Source of the DNA: a virus
DNA: 25,333 nt
IMG/VR virus record: IMGVR_UViG_3300020180_000115
Span: 1 to 25,333 of that record
Reading direction: 5' to 3' (one strand)
Positions 3,377 to 23,200 of the stretch are shown one piece after another (positions within the stretch are counted from its first letter, which is position 1; every line of letters begins with the position of its first letter). Both the position numbers and the translations under genes were made by a program. The notes beneath the pieces are model-generated. The model searched no databases. It was not told where the DNA came from and worked only from the letters and a program-made list of their open reading frames with translations.

Positions 3377-3642
3377 ATCAATTAGTGTTTGACGGCAAAC
3401 CATTAGAAGAATTATTACCCATTAAGCCTACAAATAATGACTTAATGGATATGGTAGATATTACGTTAGGGCAAGGGTTATCCATTGCTTATAATGTAAT
3501 GAAAGACAATGGTGCAGAGAACAAAGATAAAATCCAAGCATTAAATTCGGTTGTGCGAGTGGGTCAATTTTTAGACCAACGATTTAAAAAGAAAGAAGAA
3601 GAAAAAGGTATTGACTTCGGAGACCTGACAATTGAACGTTAG
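3373..3642 (+). CDS. candidate small terminase subunit or packaging accessory
   Basis: This 89-aa, mostly helical, acidic-basic protein sits directly upstream of the large terminase and overlaps it by 11 bases. Position alone suggests a small terminase (DNA recognition). It is shorter than most small terminases (about 140-200 aa) and no helix-turn-helix is evident. The second half (NKDKIQALNSVVRVGQFLDQ, then RFKKKEEEK) could form an oligomerising helix. The stop is TAG, one of only two TAG stops in the window. The small-terminase label is positional inference only. Confidence 0.6.
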   Translation: MNQLVFDGKPLEELLPIKPTNNDLMDMVDITLGQGLSIAYNVMKDNGAENKDKIQALNSVVRVGQFLDQRFKKKEEEKGIDFGDLTIER

Positions 3643-5134
3643 TGATATAATTAAATTTAACGACCGCCAAAAAGAAGCATTTCAATATATTGGTAAAGGC
3701 AAGAAAATCTTTTATGGTGGAGCAAGGGGTGGCGGTAAATCGTATTTTGCACGGGCTGCTGCGATACTAACAGCATCACAATTTCCTGGCATATCAATAG
3801 TATTTATCCGAGAAACATTCGATGAATTGAATGCAAATTTTATCTTAAAGATTCAAGAAGAGTACGATGCAGGTTTGTGGAAATACAGAATGCACCAAAA
3901 AGAAAAAGTGATGAAATTCCAAAATGGTTCTATGATTCACTTTAGAGCGATGCAAAGATATACTGATGCAAATAAGATACAAGGTTTAGAATATCAATTT
4001 ATGATTGTGGACGAAGCACCGAACGTAGCATTGTCCTTATTACAAAAACTATTTGGTTCGTTGCGTAGTGCAAGAGACGATGGTTTTATTCCGACAGTAT
4101 TAATGACAGGTAACCCAGGCGGTGGAAATGACAAATGGTTTCAAGTACGATTTGTTAATCCTGATTTCTCATACTGGACTGAATTTGAATTAAAACACAA
4201 AGACAAATATGTATTTGTTCCTGCTACTGTATATGACAATCTACACGTAACGCCACAATACATAGAAGAATTAGAAACATTACCCGAGCATTTGCGAGAG
4301 GCGTGGCTAAATGGACGTTGGGATATATTCGCTGGGCAATTCTTTGACGAGTTTAATTCAGAACATCACGTAGTCCCAACATTCGCTATACCGCAACATT
4401 GGACAAGAGCGTGTGGGGTGGATTTAGGTTTTACAGATAAACACCCAACGGTATGCTTATGGGCAGCACAAGACCCCGAAGATTTAACAGTTTATATTTA
4501 TAGAGAATATACTGGAGGCAAAAGTGGCTCTACAGAGTTGTATGCGACCGATATAAGACATCAAACGGCAAACGAGAATATATTTGGTTATTACTTAGAC
4601 CCTATGATGTTTGCTTTGCAGAAAAGAGATACTACCGACGCAATATCTCCTTCACAAATATTTGAAAATTCGGGAGTAATGCCATTATACAAAGCAAATA
4701 ACAATCGTGTATTTGGTTGGGATATATTGAAACAATGGTTGCATTGGAGAGCAAATACCCCGTCTAAATTAAAGATAATGGATTGTTGTACTTTCTTGAT
4801 AGAGAGTATTCCTGAACAAATATATGTAAAAGAGGGCGAGACTAAATCAAGAGACTTAGATTCAAGCCGTAACGACGATGCCGTAGATGCTTTAAGATAC
4901 TTAATGGTATCGGGTGGTTTTGAATATCCGACCGACGCAGTGATGCAACAAGTATATAAAAGCAGAGCAAAAGGGCAAACAAAAACGCACACAAGAGAAG
5001 AAATACAAAAAAGGTTTGTGGGATTAGATAGTGAATGTTATATTGCAGAAGATAATGGATTATACCCAATAAGCACAGAATCAAGATATGGCGATTCCAA
5101 AACTAATAAGTCAATTAGAATTTCGAGATACTAA
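3632..5134 (+). CDS. terL: terminase large subunit (packaging ATPase/nuclease)
   Basis: This 500-aa protein is the DNA packaging motor. The ATPase domain has a Walker A GGARGGGKS at 29-37, a Walker B MIVDE at 124-128 and a T-G-N-P coupling motif at 159-162. The C-terminal RNase H-like nuclease has D264 in CGVDLGF, D323 in YYLDP and the acidic cluster RNDDAVDALRYL at 413-424. It cuts concatemeric DNA and pumps it through the portal. The start must be TTG at 3632: an in-frame TGA is at 3626-3628, and no ATG or GTG occurs before Walker A. The start lies inside the preceding gene, and the stop shares a base with the portal ATG (TAATG). The last 60 or so residues after the nuclease are polar and poorly conserved-looking. 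Confidence 0.95.
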   Translation: MNVSDIIKFNDRQKEAFQYIGKGKKIFYGGARGGGKSYFARAAAILTASQFPGISIVFIRETFDELNANFILKIQEEYDAGLWKYRMHQKEKVMKFQNGSMIHFRAMQRYTDANKIQGLEYQFMIVDEAPNVALSLLQKLFGSLRSARDDGFIPTVLMTGNPGGGNDKWFQVRFVNPDFSYWTEFELKHKDKYVFVPATVYDNLHVTPQYIEELETLPEHLREAWLNGRWDIFAGQFFDEFNSEHHVVPTFAIPQHWTRACGVDLGFTDKHPTVCLWAAQDPEDLTVYIYREYTGGKSGSTELYATDIRHQTANENIFGYYLDPMMFALQKRDTTDAISPSQIFENSGVMPLYKANNNRVFGWDILKQWLHWRANTPSKLKIMDCCTFLIESIPEQIYVKEGETKSRDLDSSRNDDAVDALRYLMVSGGFEYPTDAVMQQVYKSRAKGQTKTHTREEIQKRFVGLDSECYIAEDNGLYPISTESRYGDSKTNKSIRISRY

Positions 5135-7221
5135 TGTTTGAAACAGCGAGTAAGATAGTTAAAGAAAGAGAATACAAGCAGGAAATTTACAGTAAAATCG
5201 TAAACGACCTTACTTCAGTTTCTGCTATCTTTAATGAATTTTTGATTGAGCGTAATAAGAATTTTGATTTCTATAAAGGAAAACATTGGACGGTAGAAGA
5301 AGAACAAGACCATATCGACCAAGACAGAATCCCTTATGTATTCAATGAGATATATAGAATTATATCGCATTTGGTAGGTACGCAACAACAAACAAGATTA
5401 GATGCTAGAATAGTAGCAAGAGAAAAAGGCGATGAAGCTAAGGCTGAACTGTTATCTAATATAATAAAATGGTGCGAGCAAATGAATAAGCTCGAATCAG
5501 TAGAGACTGAAGTATTCCTCGAAATGATGATAGGCGGAGCAGCCGCAACGGTAAATTCGTGGAAAATGGAAGATATAGAATATGGCTATCCTAGTGTGGA
5601 CGTTGTTCCGATTGCAGAGTTAAAGTGGGATTTACGTTCCATTAAAGAAGATTTAAGCGACGCAAGATGGATTGCAAGAACATTAAATTTAACAAGAGCT
5701 GATTTAAAAGAAGTATATCCTGAATATGCAGAAACGATAGACCACGCTACAGGTGTCCCTTACCCAGTATATAGTGTCTATGGCGAAGAAAAAACAGATT
5801 ACCAGAAAAGGATAGAGAGGATTAATGCCTCTACTAATTCTGATAGAGAAATAATTAGAAATATTGAATACTACGAACGCTTAAAAAAACCACAATGGAT
5901 TGTGAGTGATTTATTAGCAGATAAAACTTATCTATACGAAGACGAAGACGCAGGAATGGAATTTCTTGCAGGGCTTCAAGAAGCGTATATCGAAGCTGGC
6001 GAAGTAATGGTAATGCCTGATGGCGAGCCTACCGTGCAACTACACCAAATCTCACGTAATTGTATCTATCAATCGGTGGTCATAGGAGACGAAGTAGTTG
6101 AATGTAACGAGTTAGAGATTACAGAGTTCCCTTATACTGTTGCGTTTGCTAATTACAAAGATGGCGAATGGTGGGGTTATATAAGGAACTTAATATCTCC
6201 ACAAATAAGTTTAAATCGTTCTTTTAGTTTATGGGATAATATGTTACAGCGTAGCACTAAAAATGCTATTGGTGTAATTGTGAGCCGATTAGAAACTGGC
6301 TTTACCCTTGAGAATGTAAGACAGGAAATGTCAAGTGTAGCACCAGTTATACCTATGAAGACAGGCGATGCAATATTCCCTCTGCCTGACACGAAAGCAA
6401 ACGCACAATTATTTCAGAACGTGGAATATGCGATTGGTCGTATAAATGAATATGGTGGTGGTAAGAACGCATTAGGCTTACAAGAAAATTCAGCTGAAAG
6501 TGGCAAAGCTATTATGGCAAGAGCCTCGCAAGGTGGAGTTGGTCGTTTGCCGTTATTTGAAAAATTAAAGAATTGGCGAGAGTCAACTACTCTGAAAATG
6601 GTTTGGTACGTGTCAAACATAATGCCAATTAAACAAGTATTCAGAATTATTGGCTACGATGGCGAAGTATCTTATATTGATTTAGACGATGGCATATTAG
6701 ATACATTCAGAGAGATTAAAACAGACGTAATCGTAGAAGAAAGCGTACAGTCCTCTACAATGAAAGAAAGATACTTTAATCAGTTTATGGAAATTGTAGG
6801 GCGTGTAGCATTACCACCTGAAATAGTCCAAGCGTTCTTATTAGAACATAGTAACTTACCTGCGAAAACCAAACGTGAGATTGAAGAAAAAATTCAATGG
6901 CTAGCAAAGTTTAACGAAGAGCAAGCACAAACTCAAGCACAGCAAAAACTACAAAAAGAAGTAGAAGATGCAATTGCTAAGACTAAACTAAAAGAGCAAA
7001 TGCTAATGGGCGAGCAGTTAAAAGATTCTGAAAATGAAATTAAAAACAAACAAAGAAGTATCAAAGCACAGATGACAGAGTTAGAGCAATTAGTAATGAT
7101 GGCTCAAAATTCAAACGCAGATATTTCAGATAAATCAAAAATAATTAATAGTACTGACAACGTACAAGAAGCACAAGGCGTTGTTGGTTCTCAAAATCAA
7201 GGTGCTTTATTAAGGGGTTAA
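5134..7221 (+). CDS. portal protein, P22-like
   Basis: This 695-aa protein forms the dodecameric ring at the DNA-entry vertex. The N-terminal region has the P22-type portal signature: NFDFYKGKHWT near residue 43, RIPYVFNEIYRIISHLVGTQQ near 65, then a D-A-R-I-V-A-R-E segment. The length is close to the 725 aa of the P22 portal. Residues about 590-670 are a Gln/Lys/Glu-rich coiled coil (EEQAQTQAQQKLQKEVEDAI), in the place where P22 has its long helical barrel reaching into the head. It starts in the terminase stop codon (TAATG). One base separates its stop from the scaffold start (TAAGATG). The assignment rests on motif pattern, length and position between terminase and scaffold/capsid. Confidence 0.9.
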   Translation: MFETASKIVKEREYKQEIYSKIVNDLTSVSAIFNEFLIERNKNFDFYKGKHWTVEEEQDHIDQDRIPYVFNEIYRIISHLVGTQQQTRLDARIVAREKGDEAKAELLSNIIKWCEQMNKLESVETEVFLEMMIGGAAATVNSWKMEDIEYGYPSVDVVPIAELKWDLRSIKEDLSDARWIARTLNLTRADLKEVYPEYAETIDHATGVPYPVYSVYGEEKTDYQKRIERINASTNSDREIIRNIEYYERLKKPQWIVSDLLADKTYLYEDEDAGMEFLAGLQEAYIEAGEVMVMPDGEPTVQLHQISRNCIYQSVVIGDEVVECNELEITEFPYTVAFANYKDGEWWGYIRNLISPQISLNRSFSLWDNMLQRSTKNAIGVIVSRLETGFTLENVRQEMSSVAPVIPMKTGDAIFPLPDTKANAQLFQNVEYAIGRINEYGGGKNALGLQENSAESGKAIMARASQGGVGRLPLFEKLKNWRESTTLKMVWYVSNIMPIKQVFRIIGYDGEVSYIDLDDGILDTFREIKTDVIVEESVQSSTMKERYFNQFMEIVGRVALPPEIVQAFLLEHSNLPAKTKREIEEKIQWLAKFNEEQAQTQAQQKLQKEVEDAIAKTKLKEQMLMGEQLKDSENEIKNKQRSIKAQMTELEQLVMMAQNSNADISDKSKIINSTDNVQEAQGVVGSQNQGALLRG

Positions 7222-8194: not shown

Positions 8195-9484
8195 ATGTCA
8201 ACTAATAACTTACAGAGAGCTGGCGTACGTTCGAGCGTAACCGTCAACCCTCAAATAATGGCAGAAGATGTATCAGAGAAATTGAGCGTCCTAAAGCCAC
8301 ATAGATTACCAATTCAAGCTCTATCGGCTAAATTGGGAAGAGGGGCAAAACCTAAAAGCCATAAGATAGCAATTGCAGAATACCACCAACGAGACCCTTA
8401 TGATTACACGTCTGATGTAACTATTGACACAGCAGGTGGCGGATATTCAAGATTCGCATTGATTAAATTTGACAATGCACAATCTCCAGGCATTAGTGAA
8501 ATCCCGTATAGTCCACAAGACCAATTTACTGTATTACAGACAGGACAAGCGGTCGAAGTAGTTATGACGCCGACGGCTGCATTTAACCCGCAAGGCGCGG
8601 GAGAAATTACATTGCCAGCGTCTTTGACTGGGGATACAACAACACGTTCAGTTGCAGGCTACGTAGTAGTTAGAGCAGTAGAGCAAGAAGCAATCCTTCC
8701 ATTCACGCAATCTACTATGATTTTTAGAGGTCGTACAATTGTCGAATCTCAAAAAATCGAAGGTACTTCTTATCAATCAGATAGATTTTACCGTTCAAAT
8801 TTCGTGGAACATAAAGAAGCAGTATTGCAGTTTACAGAAGCGCAAAAGAAATGGCTAGAAACAAAAGCAGGGATAAAACCTGATTGGGAATTCCACCAAG
8901 AGCAAACAATGAACTCTTTTCAAGAAAGTGTAGAGTTAACTTTGTGGTTTGGCGAAAAAGCAGTTGATTATACTCTACCTGGCAGACCTAAGCGTACACT
9001 TGAAGGTATTATCCCTTCAATTAGAACAAACGTATCATACTACAATCCTGCGACTACAAGTGATTTTGAACTATTGTTAATATCATTTATTAATGAACAA
9101 GCATATCGCTATGACAGTACTACTAATAAAAAAATTGGTATGGCGGGTCAAGGATTCCTATCGAATTTCAATATGGCATTCAGAGATATTAGAAGAACAA
9201 ATCAAGTACAAGGCGAGCTTACGAAAATTGGATTAAATTACAGTTCTTATGAGTTTTATGGTAAAACATTGAATTTTATTGATACTGGCACATTTAGACC
9301 AAATACCGAAGCATCAGATTGGTTAGTAGTATTTGACCCTGCGATGGTTGATTTGCGTTTAGTGAAAAACTACGAAACAAGAGAGTATTCTGCTCCTAAC
9401 GAAAGAGATGTCAGTTTAATGATGGAGTGGCAAGGAACAATTGCATTTAATTTAGAGCAACACGCCGCTCTTTTAAGAACATAA
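8195..9484 (+). CDS. major capsid protein (HK97-type fold)
   Basis: This 429-aa protein directly follows the scaffold and has the best ribosome binding site, as expected for the most abundant virion protein. The N-terminal helix region (NPQIMAEDVSEKLSVLKPHR) and the order of later motifs resemble HK97-fold coat proteins. FQESVELTLWFGEKA is at 242-256 and RPKRTLEGIIPSI at 264-276. The second resembles the R-x-x-x-G-I motif of SU10/DUF5309-like and related coats. The C-terminal half has a further D-x-R-L-V-K segment typical of the A domain. Length is close to P22 coat (430 aa). No N-terminal delta domain rich in helices and no protease site were recognised. The exact capsid family cannot be fixed by eye. 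It is a likely client of the GroES-like protein encoded at 1381-1791. Confidence 0.88.
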   Translation: MSTNNLQRAGVRSSVTVNPQIMAEDVSEKLSVLKPHRLPIQALSAKLGRGAKPKSHKIAIAEYHQRDPYDYTSDVTIDTAGGGYSRFALIKFDNAQSPGISEIPYSPQDQFTVLQTGQAVEVVMTPTAAFNPQGAGEITLPASLTGDTTTRSVAGYVVVRAVEQEAILPFTQSTMIFRGRTIVESQKIEGTSYQSDRFYRSNFVEHKEAVLQFTEAQKKWLETKAGIKPDWEFHQEQTMNSFQESVELTLWFGEKAVDYTLPGRPKRTLEGIIPSIRTNVSYYNPATTSDFELLLISFINEQAYRYDSTTNKKIGMAGQGFLSNFNMAFRDIRRTNQVQGELTKIGLNYSSYEFYGKTLNFIDTGTFRPNTEASDWLVVFDPAMVDLRLVKNYETREYSAPNERDVSLMMEWQGTIAFNLEQHAALLRT

Positions 9485-10637: not shown

Positions 10638-11075
10638 ATGTCAGCAACATACCAAAAGAGCGTAGAGTATTCAAGCGGTCAGCCAGTTAAACGAAAACAG
10701 CAAGATAGAAGTAAATCTACTTCGGACTTTCAACTTGGCAAAACAGCGGCTAAATTAGAACAACAAAAAACTGAAAATGAGCAGACTGCACAAATGAACG
10801 CAGTCCAAGCTCAACAATTGCAATCGGCAAAAATGGAACTAGATACGCAGATGAACCAAATAGCTATATTGGTGCAACAAATGCAGTCACAGTCATCGGT
10901 AAATCAAATAGCACCACCACCAATGCCTGGCACTATGCAACCACCACAAGGCGGAATGCCCCCTGAAATGAGTGGAATACCACCGATGGGCGGAATACCA
11001 CCACAAAGCGGAATGCCACCAATGGGCGATATGCCTCCTGAAATGGGCGGAATGCCTCCAATGGGCGGAATGTAA
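10638..11075 (+). CDS. protein with helical N-terminus and Met-Pro-Gly-rich repeat tail
   Basis: This 145-aa protein is polar and Gln-rich. Residues about 30-85 are predicted helical or coiled coil (LEQQKTENEQTAQMNAVQAQ). Residues 93-145 are a low-complexity tail of short units such as GGMPPEMSGIPP and GGIPPQSGMPP, with G-x-P-P-x-G spacing of about six to eight residues. Nearly every unit contains methionine, and the protein ends MPPMGGM. There is AGG seven bases before the ATG. Its place between head and connector genes suggests a virion-associated or assembly protein. The tail is not a classical collagen G-x-y repeat. No family was recognised. Confidence 0.7.
   Translation: MSATYQKSVEYSSGQPVKRKQQDRSKSTSDFQLGKTAAKLEQQKTENEQTAQMNAVQAQQLQSAKMELDTQMNQIAILVQQMQSQSSVNQIAPPPMPGTMQPPQGGMPPEMSGIPPMGGIPPQSGMPPMGDMPPEMGGMPPMGGM
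10914..11072 (+). repeat. short imperfect repeats encoding the Met-Pro-Gly tail
   Basis: Variants of GGCGGAATGCC(A/C/T)CC and CCTGAAATG are repeated here in frame inside the preceding gene. Unit length varies between about 18 and 24 bases. Such tracts can change copy number by slippage or unequal recombination. They also create an open reading frame on the opposite strand that is an artefact. Confidence 0.7.
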
Positions 11076-11116: not shown

Positions 11117-11160
11117 TTGACGAAGAGACAGAACTAAAAATCATAATTAAAGAAGCATAA
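11110..11160 (+). CDS. possible 16-residue leader peptide
   Basis: An ATG inside the hairpin at 11088-11116 opens a frame reading MPIDEETELKIIIKEA, and the TAA shares one base with the ATG of the next gene (TAATG). An in-frame TAG at 11101 prevents a longer form. The junction type is the same as between most real genes here, which suggests a translated coupling peptide that brings ribosomes to the connector gene. No ribosome binding site is visible, so it may also be chance. Confidence 0.3.
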   Translation: MPIDEETELKIIIKEA

Positions 11161-11861
11161 TGACAGCTCTACCGTATGTTGCACGAATGCGACAAATATT
11201 GCACGATTTCGAGACACCAACTTCAAAAGGTCTGTTTTGGCAGGACGATGAGTTGGTGCTTTGTTTAAATATAGCTCAATACAGCATATTGAATACTGCA
11301 TTGAGAAACGGCACAGTACATATATTAGACAAACTTCTTAAAATTATCCCAGTTAATTTTGGGGATAATTTACCAGTAGATTATTGCCAAGCATTAACAG
11401 CTAAAGTAAAGATATTAATGAAGAACGCTACTGGTGGCACAGAAGAACATTTTATGCAAGCAAGGTTATATGAACAAGGCGAGGCGTATAATTACATCAC
11501 AACAAACCACAATAAACTATTAATTATAGAAGAGAAAGTATATCCTTATAATAGAGAGACGCAATCGCAGGCATTATTTACTTATATCAAATACCCAAGT
11601 AAGATTACATTAGATACTAACGACGCAGAATTTGGACTTAGTTCTTTTCCCGAAGATGTATATAGGAATATTATTACAATCTTAGCTATCGCAATTGCGG
11701 GCTACAAGGAGTTTAGTAACAGTAGAGATACTAAGTACTATAAAAAACTAGTAGATTATATCAGCTCATTAGGGCAAGACCATTTACCTTATATGCAAGA
11801 CATAGAGAATGTAATGCCTAAAGAAATGAAACCAACTAAAGAAAGCGACAATGACAAATAG
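11160..11861 (+). CDS. connector/ring-like protein A (first of five)
   Basis: This 233-aa protein opens with a helical segment VARMRQILHDFE and, after a short turn, WQDDELVLCLNIAQYSIL. The same pattern (helix, short loop, then E/D..L...N-x-A-x) recurs at the start of the following genes and is typical of head-to-tail connector proteins such as P22 gp4, SPP1 gp15 and T7 gp11. The middle is beta-rich and less alike. The C-terminal part has FPEDVYRNIITILAIAIAGY, a helix matching the P-x-x-Y helix of its neighbours. It likely forms a ring on the portal. Of the five it is the most divergent. It ends in TAG and overlaps the next gene by 11 bases. Confidence 0.6.
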   Translation: MTALPYVARMRQILHDFETPTSKGLFWQDDELVLCLNIAQYSILNTALRNGTVHILDKLLKIIPVNFGDNLPVDYCQALTAKVKILMKNATGGTEEHFMQARLYEQGEAYNYITTNHNKLLIIEEKVYPYNRETQSQALFTYIKYPSKITLDTNDAEFGLSSFPEDVYRNIITILAIAIAGYKEFSNSRDTKYYKKLVDYISSLGQDHLPYMQDIENVMPKEMKPTKESDNDK

Positions 11862-12537
11862 TGAAATATTATCAGCTTTAAGATTAGTCCTTGACGAAGT
11901 ATCTCAAGACTATATTTCATCGGCTGAATACAACAATGCTATTAACCAAGCACAAATGCTTGCTATCCACAGGGCATTCCGTACTGGGGATTTTCGTTGT
12001 TTAAGACCATTAGTAAAAGAAACAGATTTATTGCTAAGTGGTGCAACTATCCCAAATGATGATTTTTTATATCCCTTAGCCGCTTATATCACTAAGAATA
12101 CAGTTCCAATTAACTTTACTAACTCAAGCAAGATGAGAGTAACTTATGCAGAGCCAAATGTATATTGGGGATATGACGGGAATGGTTTATTAATATTGCC
12201 ACCGGATATTGCAACTAACCAAGCAGCGAGTGTTTATTTCTATACCACACTAAAGAACAATGAGACCGATGCAACTACTGTACATTTTAACACGCAAAAT
12301 GACAATGCAACATCGAATGTATTTATAAGGTTGTTATATGTTAAAAACCCAATTGTTGTAAATATCTATGGTGGAACTAATAGCACGAATAAAATTTCGT
12401 TACCGTTAGAATACCACCCTGCAATAGTTTCGTTCGCAGCTGAATTGCTACAAGGAATTGATGTGAATGAAGTTGAGAGAGGCGATTTAGTTTTCCAAAA
12501 TACTCGACAAAACATTGAGAGGTTCGGCAATTTATGA
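11851..12537 (+). CDS. connector/ring-like protein B
   Basis: In this 228-aa protein the N-terminal two-helix unit is clear: ILSALRLVLDEVSQ, then SSAEYNNAINQAQMLAIHRA. A beta domain follows with IPNDDFLYPLAAYITKN, in the position where its neighbours have L-P-x-D/E-F. Near the end is PLEYHPAIVSFAAELLQG, the shared C-terminal helix. This layout fits the gp4/gp11-like adaptor fold that sits beneath the portal. The ATG lies 11 bases inside the preceding gene and the stop overlaps the next start as ATGA. The ring role is inferred from architecture and place. Confidence 0.65.
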   Translation: MTNSEILSALRLVLDEVSQDYISSAEYNNAINQAQMLAIHRAFRTGDFRCLRPLVKETDLLLSGATIPNDDFLYPLAAYITKNTVPINFTNSSKMRVTYAEPNVYWGYDGNGLLILPPDIATNQAASVYFYTTLKNNETDATTVHFNTQNDNATSNVFIRLLYVKNPIVVNIYGGTNSTNKISLPLEYHPAIVSFAAELLQGIDVNEVERGDLVFQNTRQNIERFGNL

Positions 12538-13325
12538 TAGTTTACAACAATAAAACCGTAAGTAATATTTACGAAGAACTCAACTCGCAAATTAGGATAT
12601 TCAGATTAGGCAATAACTTTGACTATGAGACTTTCTTGCTTTACTTAAATAGAAGCATTAAAGAAATATATAGTTTATTTATGGCTTACGAAGACTGGAA
12701 TACGACAGATACATTGGTCGTATCAAACAATGCGTTATTGCCAAGAGAGTTTGTTGATATGGTAAAAGTAATGGTTTCTCGGAATGGCAGTCCTACCTTT
12801 ATTGAGGCTACTTATATTGCACCAGTAGAATATACAAACCTTACTAATTGGTATTCGAGACAAAGGTGGAATGCAGGTTCAAATTTCAACCCAGTTTATA
12901 CTTTATGGTCGGAAGCTAATGCACTTGGTGCGAGCCAATTAAGAATTAAAATATACCCAAACACAGAATATTTAAGCGGTGCAGCACCAACAGGTTTCTT
13001 CTACCCAACACAAAACTTTAGTGGCAAAGCGACTTACTTAGCAATGCCAAGTGATTTATCTAGCCTACACGATATAATTCCAGTTCCTTATTTATACCAC
13101 GATTTATTATTATTGTCAGTATTTTTAAAAGTTTGCACTAAGGTCGCAGATGCACAAGTGTTCGTAGGTGTTTACCAAACAATGGTAAAAGAGCGAACTG
13201 AAGTAATGGCAAAGAGAATTGAAAGAGAAAAAATATCAAAACGCAAGTTAGATGATTTCTTAGAACCAGTTTACCCAAGCGTTCCTAAAAAAACACAACC
13301 TAAAGAATTGGAGCATTTACAATGA
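12534..13325 (+). CDS. connector/ring-like protein C
   Basis: This 263-aa protein has SNIYEELNSQIRIF, then FDYETFLLYLNRSIKEIYSL, as the N-terminal helices. ALLPREFVDMVKVMVSR is the strand after them. PVPYLYHDLLLLSVFLKVC is the conserved C-terminal helix. It has an extra basic tail of about 50 residues (KRIEREKISKRKLDDFLEP) absent from the others, which could contact DNA or a neighbouring ring. ATGA overlaps link it to both neighbours. It is assigned to the same connector-like series; the exact family is not determined. Confidence 0.65.
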   Translation: MIVYNNKTVSNIYEELNSQIRIFRLGNNFDYETFLLYLNRSIKEIYSLFMAYEDWNTTDTLVVSNNALLPREFVDMVKVMVSRNGSPTFIEATYIAPVEYTNLTNWYSRQRWNAGSNFNPVYTLWSEANALGASQLRIKIYPNTEYLSGAAPTGFFYPTQNFSGKATYLAMPSDLSSLHDIIPVPYLYHDLLLLSVFLKVCTKVADAQVFVGVYQTMVKERTEVMAKRIEREKISKRKLDDFLEPVYPSVPKKTQPKELEHLQ

Positions 13326-14080
13326 CACTAAGAGATTATATCGATGAAATCACTATGCGACTATCAAGGTTGGCGATTAATAGGACTTTGGGCGACACAG
13401 AAATAATTGGATATATCAACAGGGCAAGACAACTAGTATTTAAACAGACTTATTCATTGATACCTGAAAGATATACTAAAAGAAAAGTTATTTCTACTGG
13501 CGGGCAAACCCCTAATAATGACAATGGAATTAATAGTTTGCGATTGGAATTACCAAGTGATTTTGTAGTAGATTATGTAGTTTGGGTGCAATATTTAAAT
13601 AATGGCATCACTTATAGACCGCAATCACGCAAAGTAGAGAACCAAGAATTTTACAATGTAGGTACGCACGATTGGATTAAGCCGACTAAACATAGTCCTG
13701 TTTATTACATAGATAGCGAGCAAACTTTAAATAATATATACGGTAAGAAATACTACATTAATATAACTTTAGGCGGGAGCTTGTTTGACAGTGCCTCAAC
13801 TAATAGTTCGACTGTAGAAGTACTCTATGTAGCGGCATTAAATGATTTACAATTATGGGCTATAACTGGCACAGTACAAGAACAAGAAACGACCATTCCT
13901 GCTGAATATGACGAATTAATTATTATTAATGCGTTAATGATGTGTTTAAGAGAAATAAATGTTTTGCAATCCAATGAAAATGTTAAATTAGAGTATGACT
14001 TTTTAACAAAAATGACAAAAACTTTATCAGAACAAATGATATTAAAATACCAAGTCGATATTCCAAGTAAGGGTGCATAA
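13322..14080 (+). CDS. connector/ring-like protein D
   Basis: This 252-aa protein opens with LRDYIDEITMRLSRLAI, then GDTEIIGYINRARQLVFKQ, the best match in the window to the connector N-terminal helices. LELPSDFVVDYVVWVQYL is the shared strand. TIPAEYDELIIINALMMCLR is the shared C-terminal helix; P-A-E-Y-D-E-L-I is the classic form seen in tail-completion and adaptor proteins. It starts with an ATGA overlap, and its stop shares one base with the next ATG (TAATG). Confidence 0.7.
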   Translation: MTLRDYIDEITMRLSRLAINRTLGDTEIIGYINRARQLVFKQTYSLIPERYTKRKVISTGGQTPNNDNGINSLRLELPSDFVVDYVVWVQYLNNGITYRPQSRKVENQEFYNVGTHDWIKPTKHSPVYYIDSEQTLNNIYGKKYYINITLGGSLFDSASTNSSTVEVLYVAALNDLQLWAITGTVQEQETTIPAEYDELIIINALMMCLREINVLQSNENVKLEYDFLTKMTKTLSEQMILKYQVDIPSKGA

Positions 14081-14793
14081 TGGCTAGTTTTTATAGCGAA
14101 TTATATTCAGATTTTAAAGACCAAACGAAGAATTACGTAGAGAAGCTAGACATAACTCCTGCTTCTTTTATGCGTTATTTCTCCCGTGCAATGCAACAAT
14201 TCCAAAGAGACACAGAATATAAAGAAATCAATGTAATATTGACTGCGGTAAACGGTGTATTTACTATGCCTACTGATTTAATTAGGATTATTGAAGTTAA
14301 AGATGCTGATGGTTTTTTAATGCTACAACAAGACCCTGACCAATTTAGTAGATATATGGAAGAAGAACCTGCACACAGAACCGATGGATATAGTGATTAT
14401 ATACGTAGATTAGACGCTAGTAGAGGAAACCTTCCTAACCTATATACGATATGGGGTAGAGTATTTAACTTCTATCCTGCTTACACTAAAACAACTATTA
14501 AAGTACGTTATATCCCTGAAATTAGTGCTTTTAGTGCAGCAAGCTCTCAATGGGCATTGTGGTTTACTAACGAAGATGCTTTTGAAACTCAATTTACCAC
14601 AACTGGTGTGCCAGTAGAATTTAATAGCTTTGAACAATCATTTTTGAATTACACAATTGGACAATACATTAAAACGCAAGGTAATCGTAATTATCAAGTC
14701 TTTGAAAGTATGTATAAAACCGATGTTAAATTAGCCAAAGATATTAAACCAGTATATTTCAAACAAGGTGTAAGACCTGCTAAATGGATATAA
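14080..14793 (+). CDS. connector/ring-like protein E (last of five)
   Basis: This 237-aa protein has FYSELYSDFKDQTKNYV, then TPASFMRYFSRAMQQFQRD, as N-terminal helices. GVFTMPTDLIRIIEVKD is the strand. EFNSFEQSFLNYTIGQYIK is the C-terminal helix. As the last of the series, and the one next to the giant hub gene, it is the best candidate for the ring that meets the hub. The stop is one base before the hub start (TAAGATG). Confidence 0.65.
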   Translation: MASFYSELYSDFKDQTKNYVEKLDITPASFMRYFSRAMQQFQRDTEYKEINVILTAVNGVFTMPTDLIRIIEVKDADGFLMLQQDPDQFSRYMEEEPAHRTDGYSDYIRRLDASRGNLPNLYTIWGRVFNFYPAYTKTTIKVRYIPEISAFSAASSQWALWFTNEDAFETQFTTTGVPVEFNSFEQSFLNYTIGQYIKTQGNRNYQVFESMYKTDVKLAKDIKPVYFKQGVRPAKWI

Positions 14794-14794
14794 G

Positions 14795-17700
14795 ATGCCT
14801 TTTGATAAAAAGACCGTAGTTAAATTTGATGGCTTAGTTAATGGTATTCGCTCCGAGCTTATACCCGATGGTGCTGCACGAGATATTTTAAACTTCCGAT
14901 TTGAAAAATTAGGCAAATTAGTTTCCCGCAACGGGGTACTGATAGGCTTATTTACTATTCCTAATAGCGAAGAAACTACTGTTACTGGCGATTTAGGTAG
15001 CAATAAATTTGACGAGGTATTACCTAGCTCAAGGTTGCAGAATAAAGTTTATTTGCATTCTGCTGGTATTGTTGGCATAGGCGAGTTTGTGCTTGAGGCT
15101 AAGTGGAATGCTATTGATAGCGATAGATTAATGGTATATGCTGTTAAGTCAGAATTAGCCGCTTATCCTGTGGCTTATTTATTCTCTCCATTGACTGGTA
15201 AATATGCAAACCGTCTGTTGTATCACGAAGGACAAACAAACTCTATTAATGGCGTAGCCGAAGCATTTAATGTGCTTGGTAGAATGGACTACGTAACTGT
15301 TGATACTGCTAAATTCCAAGCTCCCAAAAGACTAAACCCAACTGAAACTTACAATAGTGAACTTGCCGAGGTAGATTACTGGATTGACCAATTCGTAAGA
15401 ATGAACCAATACAGACATAAGCTAATTATATCTGATAGGATTAATGGCGATATGATGTTGGTGGACGATTACAACTCGCAAACTGACAAAGTAGAAGCAG
15501 AGAAAACCCACCAAATATACTTTAAACCTGTCAAACTACAAGATTTCGATATAGACGACGTAGAAGTAGATACAGGGTTAGATACTTACATAGGTGGCGA
15601 CAAAGGTATCAATTTAGGAGCAGTCAATACAGGTATGGGTTTATACAAGTTTGTTTTACCTAAAAAACAAATGATAGCGAGCGAGGATAATTATAGCGAT
15701 TACATAGGTAACCAAGATAAATTATTTCCGACAAGTATCCCGTGGAACGAAGGAAAAAGCCTTGATGCACGGAAATCTAAGCAGAGAGAAATTGCGAACT
15801 ATATTGTAAGGAAAGAAAATACTACATTCTTATCTTTCTACACTTTCGACGATGCAGTGCAAGTTGCTTATCCTGATGGGGTAAAACAAAAGAATTATGA
15901 TGGCACAGATACTGGAGAAATGCCTTATTATAGGCATTTAACGATTGCCAATGGTACAGAAGACCACCCCGAGTTAGAATATATATTTACTAATGGCGAA
16001 GAGAATACTGAATTTTCTGATATAATGGGAACTCCCGAATTAGAAGAAGTGCGTGGCGACGAAGAGACCGAAAAGAGTGCCAATGTTTTCGTATGGAATG
16101 ATTTCAAAATTGACTACTATGCTTCAAATGGCAAAGAATATACGACTGATAAAGATTTACGATACTACTTAAAAGATATAGATAGGATTTTTACTAAAGT
16201 GTCAAGCGGTATTCCGAAAATAACTAAACTTACAGTCAAAGACGAAAAAGGTCGTAGGGTTCCTTTGGGTGTTTATCGTTATAGATTTGTTTGGGATATG
16301 GGCGATGGCGTTTATTCTGCTCCTTCTGCCGAATTAGTAGTGCCTGATATTATGTGGTCAGCAACTCCTGATAGCCAAATGACAAATAGCGGTATAGATA
16401 AATATGTGCGACCTAGAAAAATTACAACTACTGACATCAAGAAAAGTTTAGTACAAACAAGTTTAGACGGCACTTTAATTGGCGAAGAACTTGAAGCATT
16501 TAAATTCGCAAATTATAATACACCTAATTGGACAATCAAGCCTGAAATGGAATCGTTTTGGAATTTAAAGAAAAAACTATATTCAGATACATTTAGATTC
16601 GGCAGTCAAACAAATACGTTTGCAGATTTCAATGCTTTGTTAATGTCGGACGATGTACAAGCAAAGAAGAAACAAAACTTTACAACGCTAATCACTATTG
16701 ATTATGGCGGTAGTCTAGTTAGCCTAAAAGGTAAAGTGTGGGATAGCGTTGGCGTGGCTACAAATGGTGGCGATGGTTTCCAAAACATAGGGGCTACAGC
16801 AGCAAAAGAGTGGGTAATAGGCACTCAAAATCCACAACAATATACGAGCAAAGCTTCTACTATGCCAAGTGGTGCGTTTTGGTCGACAATGGGTAGTACT
16901 AGGGTTTATCAAGGGGCTGGAGGGATTAAAGTGCCAATCTTCCAAGATGGCAGAGATATAACATTAAATTCGATATTTGATAGCGAAGGTAGATACAGAC
17001 CTAGTATTACAACGGTACAACCAACTTGGATTTTGCCGGGTATGAATTATGGGGTCGGGAATCCTTCTTCTTGGAATGGCGTGCCAATATTAGGCGATAG
17101 TGATAATGTAAGTATATTCGATGGCAGTCCAGCTGACCCATTTTTTAGTGTTAACCATTTGAAGCATAGTTGGAGAATAACGAGTACGGAACGCTATCAA
17201 TGGTCGGCTTTAGCGACTTCTTTAGTAGCAAGTGGAGTTGATACGGATATTTATTTTAATTATGAATTAAATAATTATGCCACACTCCCATTTAGTACGT
17301 ATTTAGGTGGAGACAGCAATAACCAAACGAACAATACTAAAAGAGTTGGTACAATTTTCCGTGCGATTAAAAGTGGTAATGATGATTTAGCTAATTTTAA
17401 AAGCGATATTCCTAACCAAGTAATTGATAGGATTTTATTAAAAGGCGTGCTAGAATTAATATTACAAGATACAACCGATAACTTCAGCATTGATACTGAA
17501 TATATTGATACGATGTGGGCTGCCCAAGTTTACTGGAATGCAACTTTTGACAAGGCACTTAGCGACGGGCAAATATCAATAAGTCCGTTATATGGCAGAA
17601 ACCATTTAAAAGGAGTATCACGTAACTATACTAAAGGGATTAAATTAACCAATTTCATTGGCTTTCTTAACCCTACGTTAAATTGGAAATATTATGGTGG

Positions 17701-20251
17701 TAGAGTTACAAAAGGAGGCGTGGTAGATGAATTTTCTGCTACAAGTTTTGGGTATCCGATACCTACCCGAGCCGTTAGTACAGATTCAAGCAACGGTGTT
17801 ATTACCGATAATTACTATAGCTCTTGGGAAGAAATAAGACATTATACGGCAAGTACGATAGGTGCAAGTAATGCCTTAGCCCCTTTATTTGCACATCAAA
17901 CAAATCCACAAGATGTAGCAGCCGTCCATTTATATACGAACTCACGCTTTACTTCTAATTTTAGCAAAGTCAAAATAGCTATGTATGGGACAGGCTCACG
18001 ATTATTAGCATTAGAACAACTTACTGCATATTTCCCAAGCTCTTTATTATTTAAATCGCCAAGGATAGGTTTTCAAATCCCTGCCGACAAAGTGCCAAAT
18101 GAAGCTAAGAAATTATTAATATTTAGGACTAGAGCTTCACACGAAAACGACTACAACCCAAACAAATATGGTCTAGTAGAAACAGTCGATATTAGCAGAG
18201 TTAAAGACGGTATTGTAGGTTCGGTTGATAATACGGTAACTTCTAAAAAACAAGTTTTAGGTAGCGACAACAAGAAGAAATTAGTTGACGTACAAGCGTT
18301 ATACTTCTTTGACGATGTGCCTGACAAAAAAGTGGATTTTGGCGTACAACCAAACCAATACAATGGTCAGACTACACAACTAAAAAGTGCGTTTAACATA
18401 GCACTAAATGAAAGAACGTATTATGCTAATTTCAAACAAAAACAAGATAGCATTAAACCAAGAAATTATCCTTTTCCAATCTCAACTATACCTTATACTA
18501 ATGAGTTAAAGTCAGTACAATTTTTCCAAGTAGATTCAGCAGAGGGTTTTGATTATGGGGAAGCACCAGCATACGCAATAGTATATGAGGACTTAGCAGG
18601 GCAAAAATCATTACCAACTTATTTAGCTAATTTGTCTCCTTCAATTTCAGCACCAACTGACCCAACTAAAAAGAGGGCAGTTGTTTTAGCTTATTTACCT
18701 GCGGGATATGACGAAGAAATAAAGCAATTGTTAATTTACCGTAAAGATACAGGGTCAGTTTTATACCGCTACATTGGTATTTGCAAGAAAGAAGATGAAG
18801 GTATCTTCATAGACAGCAAATTAACTCCGCAAGGTGTTTTAAAGTCCGATGCGAATGACTATATCAATTACGAAAGTGGCTTAATGTATTCAGAGACATA
18901 TAGACCCGATTGGATTAAAGCAGAGAATTTCGTTGAGGTTAAATCGGGAGATGGCAAGCAAATTACAGGATTAGTCTCATTAGCAGGTAACTTAGTTATC
19001 TTCAAAGAAACCTCTATGCACAGATATGCAGTTCAAGGGACAGACGACCCATTGAGTAGAAACGATGAGATAGACCCGCAAGTTGGCTGTATAGCACCAA
19101 ATGCCTTGATAAATGTGTCTAATTTAGTCTATTTCCTATCTTGGAAAGGATTAATGCGTTATGATAATAATAGATTAGAAAAGATTGACGGTGCTTTTGA
19201 CGAAGAGTTGCAATATATTTTAAAGAATATGCACGAACAAGACGTTAGATATATTTCTTTAGGGTATAATCCTTATTACAATGAAATTTATTTAAACTTG
19301 CCACAAGTCTATAATACTAGTAATAACGAAGTAATAAACGAAGCACAAGATACAGAACAAGCATCGCAATTCTTTGAGCAAGAAAGAAGTACAACTGGTC
19401 ATATATATATAATCAACGAAGAAAAGAAATATATAACTAAGTTTGGCTATCCATCGACTGTCGTGTATTCTGATTATATTAGTGATATGAATGTGCTAAG
19501 GTGGCAAAATAATGGGCGAGAAAACTTACGAATGTACTATACTAATACTTTAGGGGAAATGCGTAGTGCAGATTTATTCCCGAGTGTCTTTGGTCATTCA
19601 AATGTTTATGTTCCGATTGACGATACTGCAAATAAAGTATGGGCGGGGATTTACAACGAAACTCCTTATAAAGAAAGGGGAGAAGGGCTTGTTAGACCTG
19701 AAATTTATTTAGATTATGATGAGACATTAGACCCAAGAGAATTTACTCAAGAGCCACTTACTAGGGCAGTAACTTGGGATTTCGATAGTACGGTTGTGAG
19801 ACCTAATAGATATATTGATACAATTGCAGGAGTTTTTCCTGCTGTTGGTAAAGTTCCTATTGCGAACTTGTATAAATCTAAGTATTTTGCAGCAGATGAC
19901 GAGACAATTTGGAAGAGATTACGAAAAGTCGTAATTGATGTTTTTAGTAGAGGAAAGATTACTTTAGACATAAAACCAAGAACAAAAGATAGTGCCAATT
20001 CCTATACGCAAGAAGCCGATACTTCGCATACGTTTGAATACAGTTCAACAGTAAATAGCGTAGATTTATTAAAAGGCGAAGCATTAATAGGAACTAACTC
20101 AAATATATTAGAAGCCGTGCCTGATAGCAGACAAGATAGTGCTACAAGAAATAAGCCATTAGAAGTGTCGCTTGAAATATCGTCTTCACAAAGAACAGAA
20201 ATTAAAGAAATTTCATTCTATTGGAAACCAATTAAAACGTATCTAAAATAA
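14795..20251 (+). CDS. giant tail hub/nozzle (stabilisation) protein
   Basis: This 1818-aa protein makes up over a fifth of the window. The N-terminus VVKFDGLVNGIRSELIPDG, then ARDILNFRFEKLGKLVSRNG (29-48), is the opening seen in phage tail nozzle, tail-tubular-B-like and P22 gp10-like proteins. Near 475-520 is an Fn3-like strand set (GVYRYRFVWDMGDGVYSAP). A second similar unit lies near 1230-1340 (YAIVYEDLAGQKSLP, QLLIYRKDTGSVLYRYIG). Residues about 1376-1490 carry the hub signature: ITGLVSLAGNLVIFKETSMH, VGCIAPNAL and FLSWKGLMRYD (1447-1457). The protein is far longer than P22 gp10 (about 470 aa) or T7 gp12 (about 800), comparable to the large muzzle proteins of crAss-like phages. It probably closes the DNA channel and anchors the fibres. 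No frameshift or stop interrupts it. No lysozyme motif was found. Confidence 0.8.
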   Translation: MPFDKKTVVKFDGLVNGIRSELIPDGAARDILNFRFEKLGKLVSRNGVLIGLFTIPNSEETTVTGDLGSNKFDEVLPSSRLQNKVYLHSAGIVGIGEFVLEAKWNAIDSDRLMVYAVKSELAAYPVAYLFSPLTGKYANRLLYHEGQTNSINGVAEAFNVLGRMDYVTVDTAKFQAPKRLNPTETYNSELAEVDYWIDQFVRMNQYRHKLIISDRINGDMMLVDDYNSQTDKVEAEKTHQIYFKPVKLQDFDIDDVEVDTGLDTYIGGDKGINLGAVNTGMGLYKFVLPKKQMIASEDNYSDYIGNQDKLFPTSIPWNEGKSLDARKSKQREIANYIVRKENTTFLSFYTFDDAVQVAYPDGVKQKNYDGTDTGEMPYYRHLTIANGTEDHPELEYIFTNGEENTEFSDIMGTPELEEVRGDEETEKSANVFVWNDFKIDYYASNGKEYTTDKDLRYYLKDIDRIFTKVSSGIPKITKLTVKDEKGRRVPLGVYRYRFVWDMGDGVYSAPSAELVVPDIMWSATPDSQMTNSGIDKYVRPRKITTTDIKKSLVQTSLDGTLIGEELEAFKFANYNTPNWTIKPEMESFWNLKKKLYSDTFRFGSQTNTFADFNALLMSDDVQAKKKQNFTTLITIDYGGSLVSLKGKVWDSVGVATNGGDGFQNIGATAAKEWVIGTQNPQQYTSKASTMPSGAFWSTMGSTRVYQGAGGIKVPIFQDGRDITLNSIFDSEGRYRPSITTVQPTWILPGMNYGVGNPSSWNGVPILGDSDNVSIFDGSPADPFFSVNHLKHSWRITSTERYQWSALATSLVASGVDTDIYFNYELNNYATLPFSTYLGGDSNNQTNNTKRVGTIFRAIKSGNDDLANFKSDIPNQVIDRILLKGVLELILQDTTDNFSIDTEYIDTMWAAQVYWNATFDKALSDGQISISPLYGRNHLKGVSRNYTKGIKLTNFIGFLNPTLNWKYYGGRVTKGGVVDEFSATSFGYPIPTRAVSTDSSNGVITDNYYSSWEEIRHYTASTIGASNALAPLFAHQTNPQDVAAVHLYTNSRFTSNFSKVKIAMYGTGSRLLALEQLTAYFPSSLLFKSPRIGFQIPADKVPNEAKKLLIFRTRASHENDYNPNKYGLVETVDISRVKDGIVGSVDNTVTSKKQVLGSDNKKKLVDVQALYFFDDVPDKKVDFGVQPNQYNGQTTQLKSAFNIALNERTYYANFKQKQDSIKPRNYPFPISTIPYTNELKSVQFFQVDSAEGFDYGEAPAYAIVYEDLAGQKSLPTYLANLSPSISAPTDPTKKRAVVLAYLPAGYDEEIKQLLIYRKDTGSVLYRYIGICKKEDEGIFIDSKLTPQGVLKSDANDYINYESGLMYSETYRPDWIKAENFVEVKSGDGKQITGLVSLAGNLVIFKETSMHRYAVQGTDDPLSRNDEIDPQVGCIAPNALINVSNLVYFLSWKGLMRYDNNRLEKIDGAFDEELQYILKNMHEQDVRYISLGYNPYYNEIYLNLPQVYNTSNNEVINEAQDTEQASQFFEQERSTTGHIYIINEEKKYITKFGYPSTVVYSDYISDMNVLRWQNNGRENLRMYYTNTLGEMRSADLFPSVFGHSNVYVPIDDTANKVWAGIYNETPYKERGEGLVRPEIYLDYDETLDPREFTQEPLTRAVTWDFDSTVVRPNRYIDTIAGVFPAVGKVPIANLYKSKYFAADDETIWKRLRKVVIDVFSRGKITLDIKPRTKDSANSYTQEADTSHTFEYSSTVNSVDLLKGEALIGTNSNILEAVPDSRQDSATRNKPLEVSLEISSSQRTEIKEISFYWKPIKTYLK

Positions 20252-23200
20252 TGCCACAATATAGAAAATCAATAATGAACGAACACGCTCGAAGTTTCGA
20301 CGGGCGTTATCTGAAAGTTACCGAAAAGGCTACTTTTAGTTACTTAGGGGCAGCAGGTTACTTACGAGTAGATGCCAACGGTGTGCTTGCTTTAGCTGAC
20401 CCATTATCGGGAGGCGGGGCTGGTGCTTGGGGTTTAATTGGCGGTACGATTACTGACCAAGTAGATTTACAAGCTATCTTATCGACGAAATTAGAAGCTA
20501 ATACTACAATAGCTTTAATTAACAAAACAATTGACGGTTCATTAAATACAATTTCAAATGTAGGTGGTTCTGCTATTACAAGCGGGACAATTGCCGATAC
20601 AAGATTAAGTTCTAATATCACTCAAAAAGGCAATGTTTTTAATTTAGCAAACGGTTTAGTCCAATTAGATTCAAACACAAAAATCCCTATTGCATTGATT
20701 CCCGATGGTATAGCTGGTGGTTTGCAATTCCAAGGTGTTTGGAATGCTACAACTGGTTTACCGACTATCCCTGCCGCTATACCTGCGAACAACAGCTTCT
20801 ATTATAAAGTTGGTGTTGCAGGTAGTACAGATGTAGGCGGAGTTACTACTTGGGACGAAGGAGATTGGGTAATTTCCAATGGAACTAATTGGGAGCAAAT
20901 TAAAACTTCCGATACTATTACGAGCGTATTTGGTAGAACTGGGACAGTAGTTGCAACTGCGGGAGATTATAATGCCGCTAAGATTACTTTTACCCCTTAT
21001 GGTTCGGTTACAGGCATACAATTACAATCCGCACTAGAACAGATTATTGATAGTTTAGGCACTACTTTACCTGTGAACAGCACAAATGGTACTTTAAGAT
21101 ATAACGGTTCAGCTTATGTTGCCTCAAGTACTCTTTTAGTCGGAGCTAATAGTATTGGCGTAAATGGCAATCCTGCGGGAGCAGTCGCCTCTTTGAATGT
21201 AGTTCCTGATAGTAAAGATTATGGCGTTTATCAGTTAGGCTCGCCAACTAAAGCATTATATCACGGTGTTGCACAAACTGGAGAAGTATTAGTTGCTTAT
21301 CCAAATAATGCGACTAAAGCAGGTATATTGATTGACAAAAATTCAATATTAAACAGCAATACTAAATCGGGGCATATAGTTCTCGGGACACAAACTGGTT
21401 TAGAGCAAAATTTTATTTCGGCAGGTTCTTACGTTTCTTCAATTGGTGCTAACTATTCTAATTTAGACCTATCATTCGCTGTAAATTCAAGCGGTGGGGT
21501 ATTGAGCAAAGACGGCTTTACTGTTACGACCAACGTTGAAACTCCTGCCAATTATTTAAAAGTTACTGGTACTCCTACTGGTGCGAGAGTTATAACTTTG
21601 CCCGATGCAACTACGAACTTAGTTGGTCATAATACAGCACAAACATTGACTACTAAAACACTTGGTAGTGGGACTAAGATTAATTTAGGTACTGCGGCTA
21701 TAGGAGACTTTAATTACAGCTCCGATACGTCGGGGACTTTAGTAAGATTACCTGTCGGCACAACTGGTCAAGTATTGACAGTTACAGCTGGTGTGCCTAC
21801 GTGGTCAGCAGTTCAAGGGACTGGAGACGTAAATGGGTCGGTATCTTCTGTTAATGGGCAAATAGCTTTATTTAATGGTACAAGCGGAAAATCAATTACT
21901 CCATTTACTGGTACTGGTTTGCCACGTTTTGAAAACGGTATGATTAGTGCGGTATATGTGTTGACGGGTGCACCATTAACCGATATAGATGCACAAACAG
22001 TCCGCAATAAAACTTTAAACAACACTAATGCTTATAATGTTAAAGATACATTGTTTACATTAGAAGATAACGCTGATGCGACTAAGCAAGTACAATTTGA
22101 ATTATCTAGTATTGCAACTGCAACAACAAGGACATTCACTTTCCCGAATGCAAGTGGAACTTTCATAACTGACACTTCTACTAATACATTCAGTAATAAA
22201 TCAATTAGCGGTTCTACGAATACATTGACTGCAATAGCACCAAGTTCAATTACTACAGATTCATCTAATAGGTTTGCAACCGATGCCGAAAAGACTACTT
22301 GGAATGGCAAAGCAGATTCAGTCCACACACACGCTGCGGCTGATATAGTTTCAGGCGTTGTAGCGACTGCACGTTTAGCCACTGGCACTGCAAATAGTAC
22401 TACTTACTTACGTGGGGACAGTACTTGGGCGACAATTACCACAGGCGTTAGTTCATTTAATTCACGTAGTGGTGCGGTTGTTCCTGCAAGTAGCGATTAT
22501 ACTTTTGCTCAAATAGCTTCTACTCCAACTACGACAACTGGTTATGGGATTACAGACGCTGTTACTTTGACAGGCACCCAAAACGTTACGAACAAAGGGA
22601 TTAGTGGTTCTACTATAAGCGTGAATGCTTCTGATTTAACTTTGTTAGCGGCTACTTCTAAAACAGCAATATTCGCACTAAGTCAAGCTAATTCAACAGC
22701 AAGAACATTCACTTTGCCAAGCACAAGTACAGTCTTAGTTGGCGATGATACTACTCAAACTTTAACTAATAAAACATTAGATGAAGGGAATATAGTAGGA
22801 TTACGTTCCGATAGATTTAATTTAAAAGCAGTAAGTGATATAAGCAAACAAGCAGTATTTAATTTAGCAAATATTACAACGTTAACAACAAGAGTATATA
22901 CTTTACCCGATGCAAATACTACATTGGTTGGCACAGCTACTACAGATACTCTAACCAACAAGTCGATTAGTGGTTCAACAAATACTTTAAGTGCAATAGC
23001 AAATGGAGCATTAACTAATAGTGCCGTAACTATTGGTTCTACTTCTGTTTCGTTAGGTGCTACTGCAACAACGATAGCTGGTTTGTCTTCTGTAACTTCT
23101 ACTACTTTTGTAGGAGCTTTAACGGGAAATGCTTCAACAGTAACCACAAACGCAAATCTTACTGGTAATGTAACGAGCGTAGGGAATGCTACTACGATTG

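Follow-up and report, generated by a model that had tools for sequence, protein, structure and literature searches.

Gene content of the locus

The window analysed here is the whole of a linear contig of 25,333 bases from an uncultured phage (IMG/VR record IMGVR_UViG_3300020180_000115), in which all listed genes lie on one strand. Its gene order is 10-kDa chaperonin, terminase, P22-type portal, acidic scaffold-like protein, capsid protein and three small genes, downstream of which come five consecutive genes, here named r1 to r5, followed by a gene for an 1818-residue protein (the hub) and one for a 1624-residue fibre-like protein (coordinates are collected in Table 1). An earlier reading made from the sequence only had proposed that the five genes are divergent copies of one connector family whose products form a long stack of rings. 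The results below indicate that r1–r5 are ancient paralogues sharing the fold of head-to-tail adaptors ("rings"), and that their products are probably stacked as rings in a short tail barrel that would be closed by the hub.

The five ring genes are ancient paralogues

Three motifs recur among the ring proteins. An N/S-x-A/S motif lies in helix 2 of r1–r5 (LNIAQ, INQAQ, LNRSI, INRAR and FSRAM), an L/I/M-P-x-x-F/Y/L motif appears as LPVDY (in r1), LPREF, LPSDF and MPTDL, and the C-terminal helix is led by P-x-x-Y/F (LPLEY, IPVPY, IPAEY and VPVEF). The motifs quoted in the sequence-only reading are present, and LPVDY of r1 is an additional instance that it did not list. The paralogy is invisible to single-sequence BLAST among r1–r5, where the best pair (r3–r5) shows 16% identity over 225 residues with an E-value of 3.9. 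Profiles were built from the five orthologous families (orthologues taken from related contigs) and compared using hhalign. The strongest link is r3–r4 (99.6%, E 1e-24, 223 columns), followed by r1–r2 (96.9%, E 1.5e-10), r2–r3 (91.7%, E 8e-7), r3–r5 (75%, E 2.5e-5), r1–r3 (72%) and r2–r4 (69%). When profiles are merged, r1/r2 matches r3/r4 at 96.0% and r3/r4 matches r5 at 84.5%. The main alignments are in register, N-terminus to N-terminus, and control families (capsid, portal and crAss non-ring families) reach at most 2.0% against the ring profiles. With three links above 90% and all five families joined in one connected graph, the mutual matches above 90% that had been anticipated are largely found, and the proposal that the genes are divergent copies of one family is borne out. 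HMMER models of r3 and r4 also detect each other's families in contigs outside profile building, with E-values down to 3.8e-16.

In a tree of 114 sequences, r1, r2, r3, r4 and r5 each form one clade, and the duplications are therefore older than the divergence of these phages; a smaller tree does not recover r4 as a single clade. The most conserved ring is r5, with a mean pairwise identity of 37% compared with 28–30% for r1–r4.

Adaptor family and fold

Orthologues of all five ring families match the Pfam family SU10_adaptor (PF24175). Among the window's own proteins r5 alone matches it in direct scans (E 1.4e-11, 45.6 bits against a curated cut-off of 27), r1–r4 being unmatched there; among orthologues, matches occur in 7/17 for r1 (best E 2.4e-8), 2/17 for r2 (best E 1.1e-7), 8/17 for r3 (best E 1.9e-10) and 6/16 for r4 (best E 1e-5). 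The Pfam models CrAss_Ring_1, CrAss_Ring_2 and CrAss_Ring_3_4, which are matched strongly by the proteins of the crassvirus crAss001, are unmatched by the window proteins (at E 1) and by their orthologues (at E 0.01). A genome search with CrAss_Ring_3_4 gave no match even in the controls and so carries no information.

AlphaFold models of r1 and r3 (predicted local distance difference test scores, pLDDT, of 83.2 and 81.7) show a beta-sandwich preceded by two N-terminal helices and followed by a C-terminal helix pair, as is described for crAss ring proteins (PMC10172136). The best PDB match of the r1 model is 7qoj_D, crAss001 ring protein 3 or gp35 (Foldseek 8e-7), with which it superimposes at Z 11.1 and a root-mean-square deviation of 3.9 over 178 residues. 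For the r3 model, matches include the SU10 adaptor (2e-7) and crAss rings (1e-5), with Z up to 12.4. For both models the top PDB matches are connectors (crAss rings, SU10, KHP30, GP4, VP1, T7 gp11 and others), and the remaining matches are low-probability noise. A resemblance to P22 gp4, T7 gp11 or crAss rings had been predicted, and the folds do match crAss001 rings, T7 gp11 and Sf6 gp7, an adaptor of the P22 gp4 type. Matches to PDB entries came from fold comparison alone; hmmsearch with profiles of r2, r3 and r5 found no genuine match among PDB sequences.

Conservation of the array in related contigs

No close relative is present in the annotated phage collection, in which the capsid protein and r5 were unmatched by tblastn, and single-sequence scans of viral contigs with the portal, r4 and terminase found no relatives. 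Relatives were instead found stepwise, an alignment of terminases yielding two contigs and alignments of portal and capsid proteins yielding the remainder. A further 16 contigs (L098, L101, L103, L105, L106, L107, L108, L110, L162, L167, L168, L169, L170, L171, L172 and L173, a count that includes some near-duplicates) carry all of r1–r5 in one conserved order, with head genes on one side and the hub gene on the other. In L108, whose contig (G007) is circular, r5 and the hub are found at the opposite end. The two ends of this contig, one carrying r4 and the other r5, share an exact overlap of 127 bases, which implies a genome of ~76.7 kb with five consecutive ring genes. Three further contigs (L011, L097 and L166) are truncated within the ring array. 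Relatives lie in contigs of metagenome-assembled genomes (MAGs) of Bacteroidia, Ignavibacteria and Kapaibacterium, which points to possible hosts in these groups.

A few relatives carry unrelated genes that interrupt or follow the array, none of which is a further ring by hidden Markov model (HMM) search. Such genes lie within or just after the array at L011:18324-19490, L172:13839-14546 and L105:14655-15764; the first and last of these were covered by a Pfam scan and had no match. Between r5 and the hub of a relative from a Bacteroidia MAG (L171:18216-18860) lies a gene for a D-Ala-D-Ala carboxypeptidase-like protein (Peptidase_M15_4, E 2e-8), which might be a cargo enzyme of the tail.

The giant hub

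The C-terminal part of the hub matches a profile of ordinary nozzles of 490–600 residues at 98.5% (E 2e-15), and the same nozzle segment recurs in the crAss muzzle (89.5%). In hub and crAss muzzle alike, this segment is preceded by ~1000 residues that are foreign to ordinary nozzles. By tblastn, hub residues ~1378–1464 match single nozzle proteins directly, namely a 'phage stabilization protein' (E 5e-4) and a protein of a Microcystis phage (E 5e-3). Compared directly with the crAss muzzle, the hub gives a weak match that is confined to the nozzle segment. A crAss-type muzzle is characterized by a nozzle core that a very large insert interrupts and by a crass-fold domain; for the hub, the N-terminal half gives a weak alignment (2.7%) and the long central part is unmatched.

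Affinities of the head and ring proteins

In the capsid family, 6/10 members match phrog_1328, the SU10 capsid protein family (the window protein itself at E 0.13), whereas the crAss capsid belongs to phrog_11589. The portal falls in phrog_156, compared with phrog_6547 for crAss, and the terminase in phrog_2, likewise distinct from the crAss family. By profile, the terminase matches SU10 at 97.8% over 306 columns and crAss at 79.9% over 69 columns, and the portal matches a Paracoccus podophage at 99.8% and crAss at 7%; both fit SU10, P22 and the Paracoccus podophage better than crAss. The head is therefore not of the crAss type.

The rings show affinities in two directions. Merged r1/r2 matches crAss R3/R4 at 91.2% (r2 alone at 41%), and an r1/r2 HMM detects crAss-type gp34 proteins (E 8e-4 and 2e-5), while r3 (85.9%) and r5 (76.9%) match a profile of the single adaptors of other podophages. 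By profile, then, proteins of this clade bridge the single adaptors (r3, r5) and the crAss rings (r1, r2), and the sequence-only comparison with crAss ring stacks was apt. At this depth the crAss ring profiles find none of these single adaptors, and as single sequences P22 gp4, T7 gp11 and the solitary Paracoccus adaptor match no ring profile; since the crAss R1, R2 and R3/R4 profiles do not detect even one another at this depth, negatives of this kind are uninformative. Quick trees hint at a grouping of r1/r2 with crAss R3/R4 (support 88) and, in a second tree, of r5 with crAss R1 (88, with a warning of long branches). Constraining r1–r5 to one clade is not rejected (approximately unbiased test, p-AU 0.355), a value that does not decide between shared descent with crassviruses and independent expansion.

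Comparison with known tails

Multi-ring barrels are termed a defining feature of crassviruses (PMC10172136). In crAss001 four paralogues form five stacked 12-fold rings, ~23 nm long, with R1 at the portal; R1 is encoded by the gene adjoining the muzzle gene, and the same gene cluster encodes the collar proteins THA and THB (PMC10172136). The proteins of this barrel are R1 (gp43), R2 (gp40), R3 (gp35), R4/R5 (gp34) and the muzzle (gp44). As in crAss001, the present clade has several paralogous ring proteins of ~225–260 residues encoded between the capsid gene and a giant hub gene; five ring layers are expected, the fold is the same (the best PDB match of r1 being gp35), and the nozzle segment of the hub is shared. 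Unlike crAss001, it has five distinct ring genes (there are four in crAss001 and three in many crassviruses), and these are contiguous, whereas the crAss001 array is broken by collar and other genes. Its rings belong to SU10_adaptor and not to the CrAss_Ring families, its head genes are SU10/P22-like, the central part of its hub is unrelated by sequence, and its circular relative measures 76.7 kb compared with 102.7 kb.

With SU10 the clade shares the Pfam family of all five rings and the capsid protein family; however, the SU10 tail is described as having a single adaptor protein (PMC9509320), compared with five tandem paralogues and an 1818-residue hub here. In Paracoccus phage KLEP18-1, Microcystis phage Mae-JY35, T7 (gp11/gp12) and P22 (gp4/gp10), an adaptor gene immediately precedes the nozzle gene, just as r5 directly precedes the hub gene on its 5' side, but those podophages carry one adaptor (~170–250 residues) and a much smaller nozzle, and have no array.

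A predicted multi-ring tail barrel

Each of r1–r5 most likely assembles as a 12-fold ring, one ring per gene, and the rings would be stacked in the order portal–r5–r4–r3–r2–r1–hub to form a short, wide tail barrel that may serve as conduit or store. The order follows the crAss001 layout: since R1 sits at the portal and its gene adjoins the muzzle gene, r5 would by analogy adjoin the portal and r1 the hub. A portal-proximal r5 is also predicted from its being the most conserved ring and from its occupying the position of the single adaptor in outgroups. The hub would be a nozzle enlarged by ~1000 residues ahead of its conserved segment, closing the distal end in the manner of the crAss001 muzzle. 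Ring genes adjoin or overlap (by 11, 4, 4 and 1 bases from r1 to r5), which fits coupled, near-equal synthesis; such overlaps of start and stop codons would link the translation of neighbouring genes and favour equal amounts of the products.

Several points weigh against this model. The family r5 is tied to the other rings solely through r3 and the Pfam match, the pairs r1–r5, r2–r5 and r4–r5 all scoring below 1%. The adaptor fold of r2, r4 and r5 is ascribed to them through profile homology to the modelled rings, and the order of rings within the stack is taken from the analogy with crAss001. One protein might account for two rings, like crAss001 gp34, or one of the five might be a non-ring protein. 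The central part of the hub shows no detectable sequence similarity to the insert of the crAss muzzle, and we know of no structure, mass spectrometry or image for any member of the clade.

An arrangement in which only part of the array encodes axial rings, and one or two members are instead a collar, a fibre-docking hub or a part of the portal vertex that retained the adaptor fold, would accord with the presence of collar genes in the crAss001 cluster and with the lower conservation of r1–r4 relative to r5. It is nevertheless improbable, given that the crAss collar proteins THA and THB score at most 0.7% by profile against all five families, where merged r1/r2 finds R3/R4 strongly, and that all five families match the adaptor model of Pfam. 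That the array is instead the ordinary neck of a long-tailed phage, made of unrelated connectors (adaptor, stopper and terminator) alike in size only, is hardly credible: long-tailed phages do carry several small genes for the neck downstream of the capsid gene, but r1–r5 are mutually homologous by profile, the next gene is nozzle-like, and the tape-measure family PF10145, the one such family searched, has no match in five long contigs of the clade. The last two observations lend some weak support to the suggestion in the sequence-only reading that the ring stack replaces a tail tube.

The phage might also be simply a divergent crassvirus, its multi-ring array a known feature of a known order. 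It shares with crAss001 the gene order 10-kDa chaperonin, terminase, portal, capsid, rings and giant hub, r1/r2 match crAss R3/R4, the crAss portal is weakly linked to phrog_156, the portal family of the clade, and the relatives come from MAGs of the groups listed above. Against this stand the non-crAss families of capsid, portal and terminase, a terminase far closer to SU10 and a portal far closer to the Paracoccus podophage, the smaller circular genome, and CrAss_Ring models that neither the window proteins nor their orthologues match, all of which make a crassvirus an unlikely identity. The array nonetheless displays the trait called defining of Crassvirales (PMC10172136), several ring protein genes, here five in number. 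On balance we favour, with some reserve, a multi-ring tail barrel built from five genes in a clade outside Crassvirales, arisen independently of the crassviruses or older than them.

In the literature searched, multi-ring barrels are reported from crassviruses only, where they are tied to the storage of cargo proteins in the tail. The combination of SU10/P22-type head genes with a conserved array of five ring genes suggests that the multi-ring design is broader than that group. The rings of this clade match both the single adaptors of podophages and the crAss rings, two groups without a mutual match at this depth, and so offer an evolutionary bridge that makes testable the transition from a one-ring neck to a barrel, and whether the number of rings sets tail length.

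Features and neighbouring genes

Table 1. Positions of the ring, hub and head genes in the window.
Feature	Position	Strand	Description
r1	11160..11861	+	ring protein, 233 aa; predicted hub-proximal
r2	11851..12537	+	ring protein, 228 aa
r3	12534..13325	+	ring protein, 263 aa
r4	13322..14080	+	ring protein, 252 aa; nearest paralogue r3
r5	14080..14793	+	ring protein, 237 aa; predicted portal-proximal adaptor
hub, nozzle/muzzle-like	14795..20251	+	1818 aa
hub segment, residues ~1378-1464	18926..19186	+	direct tblastn match to single nozzle proteins
terminase large subunit	3632..5134	+	Terminase_3, E 4e-12; phrog_2
portal protein	5134..7221	+	P22_portal, E 1e-69; phrog_156
major capsid protein	8195..9484	+	family matches phrog_1328 (SU10 capsid protein family)

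In the relatives L097 (4649-7021) and L110 (7387-9963) the terminase frame opens far 5' of the usual start and the terminase match falls in two pieces; these genes possibly carry an insertion. The circular contig G007 (L182, L183 and L184) encodes multi-domain glycosyltransferase/methyltransferase proteins, a 2423-residue protein without a Pfam match and, near the tail genes, two collagen-repeat proteins.

Upstream of the terminase gene in the window, positions 1381-1791 encode a GroES-like co-chaperonin (Cpn10, E 5e-9), and the 10-kDa chaperonin of crAss001 is similarly placed. The gene adjoining r1 on its 5' side (10638-11075) encodes a 145-residue protein with PPxxGG/MPPMGG repeats at its C-terminus and is present in at least four relatives. 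The 1624-residue fibre-like protein (20251-25125), for which Pfam gives no match, contains repeated segments of the T-N-K type, and its C-terminal stretch has S/A-x-A-x-G repeats that by eye resemble the heads of trimeric autotransporters.

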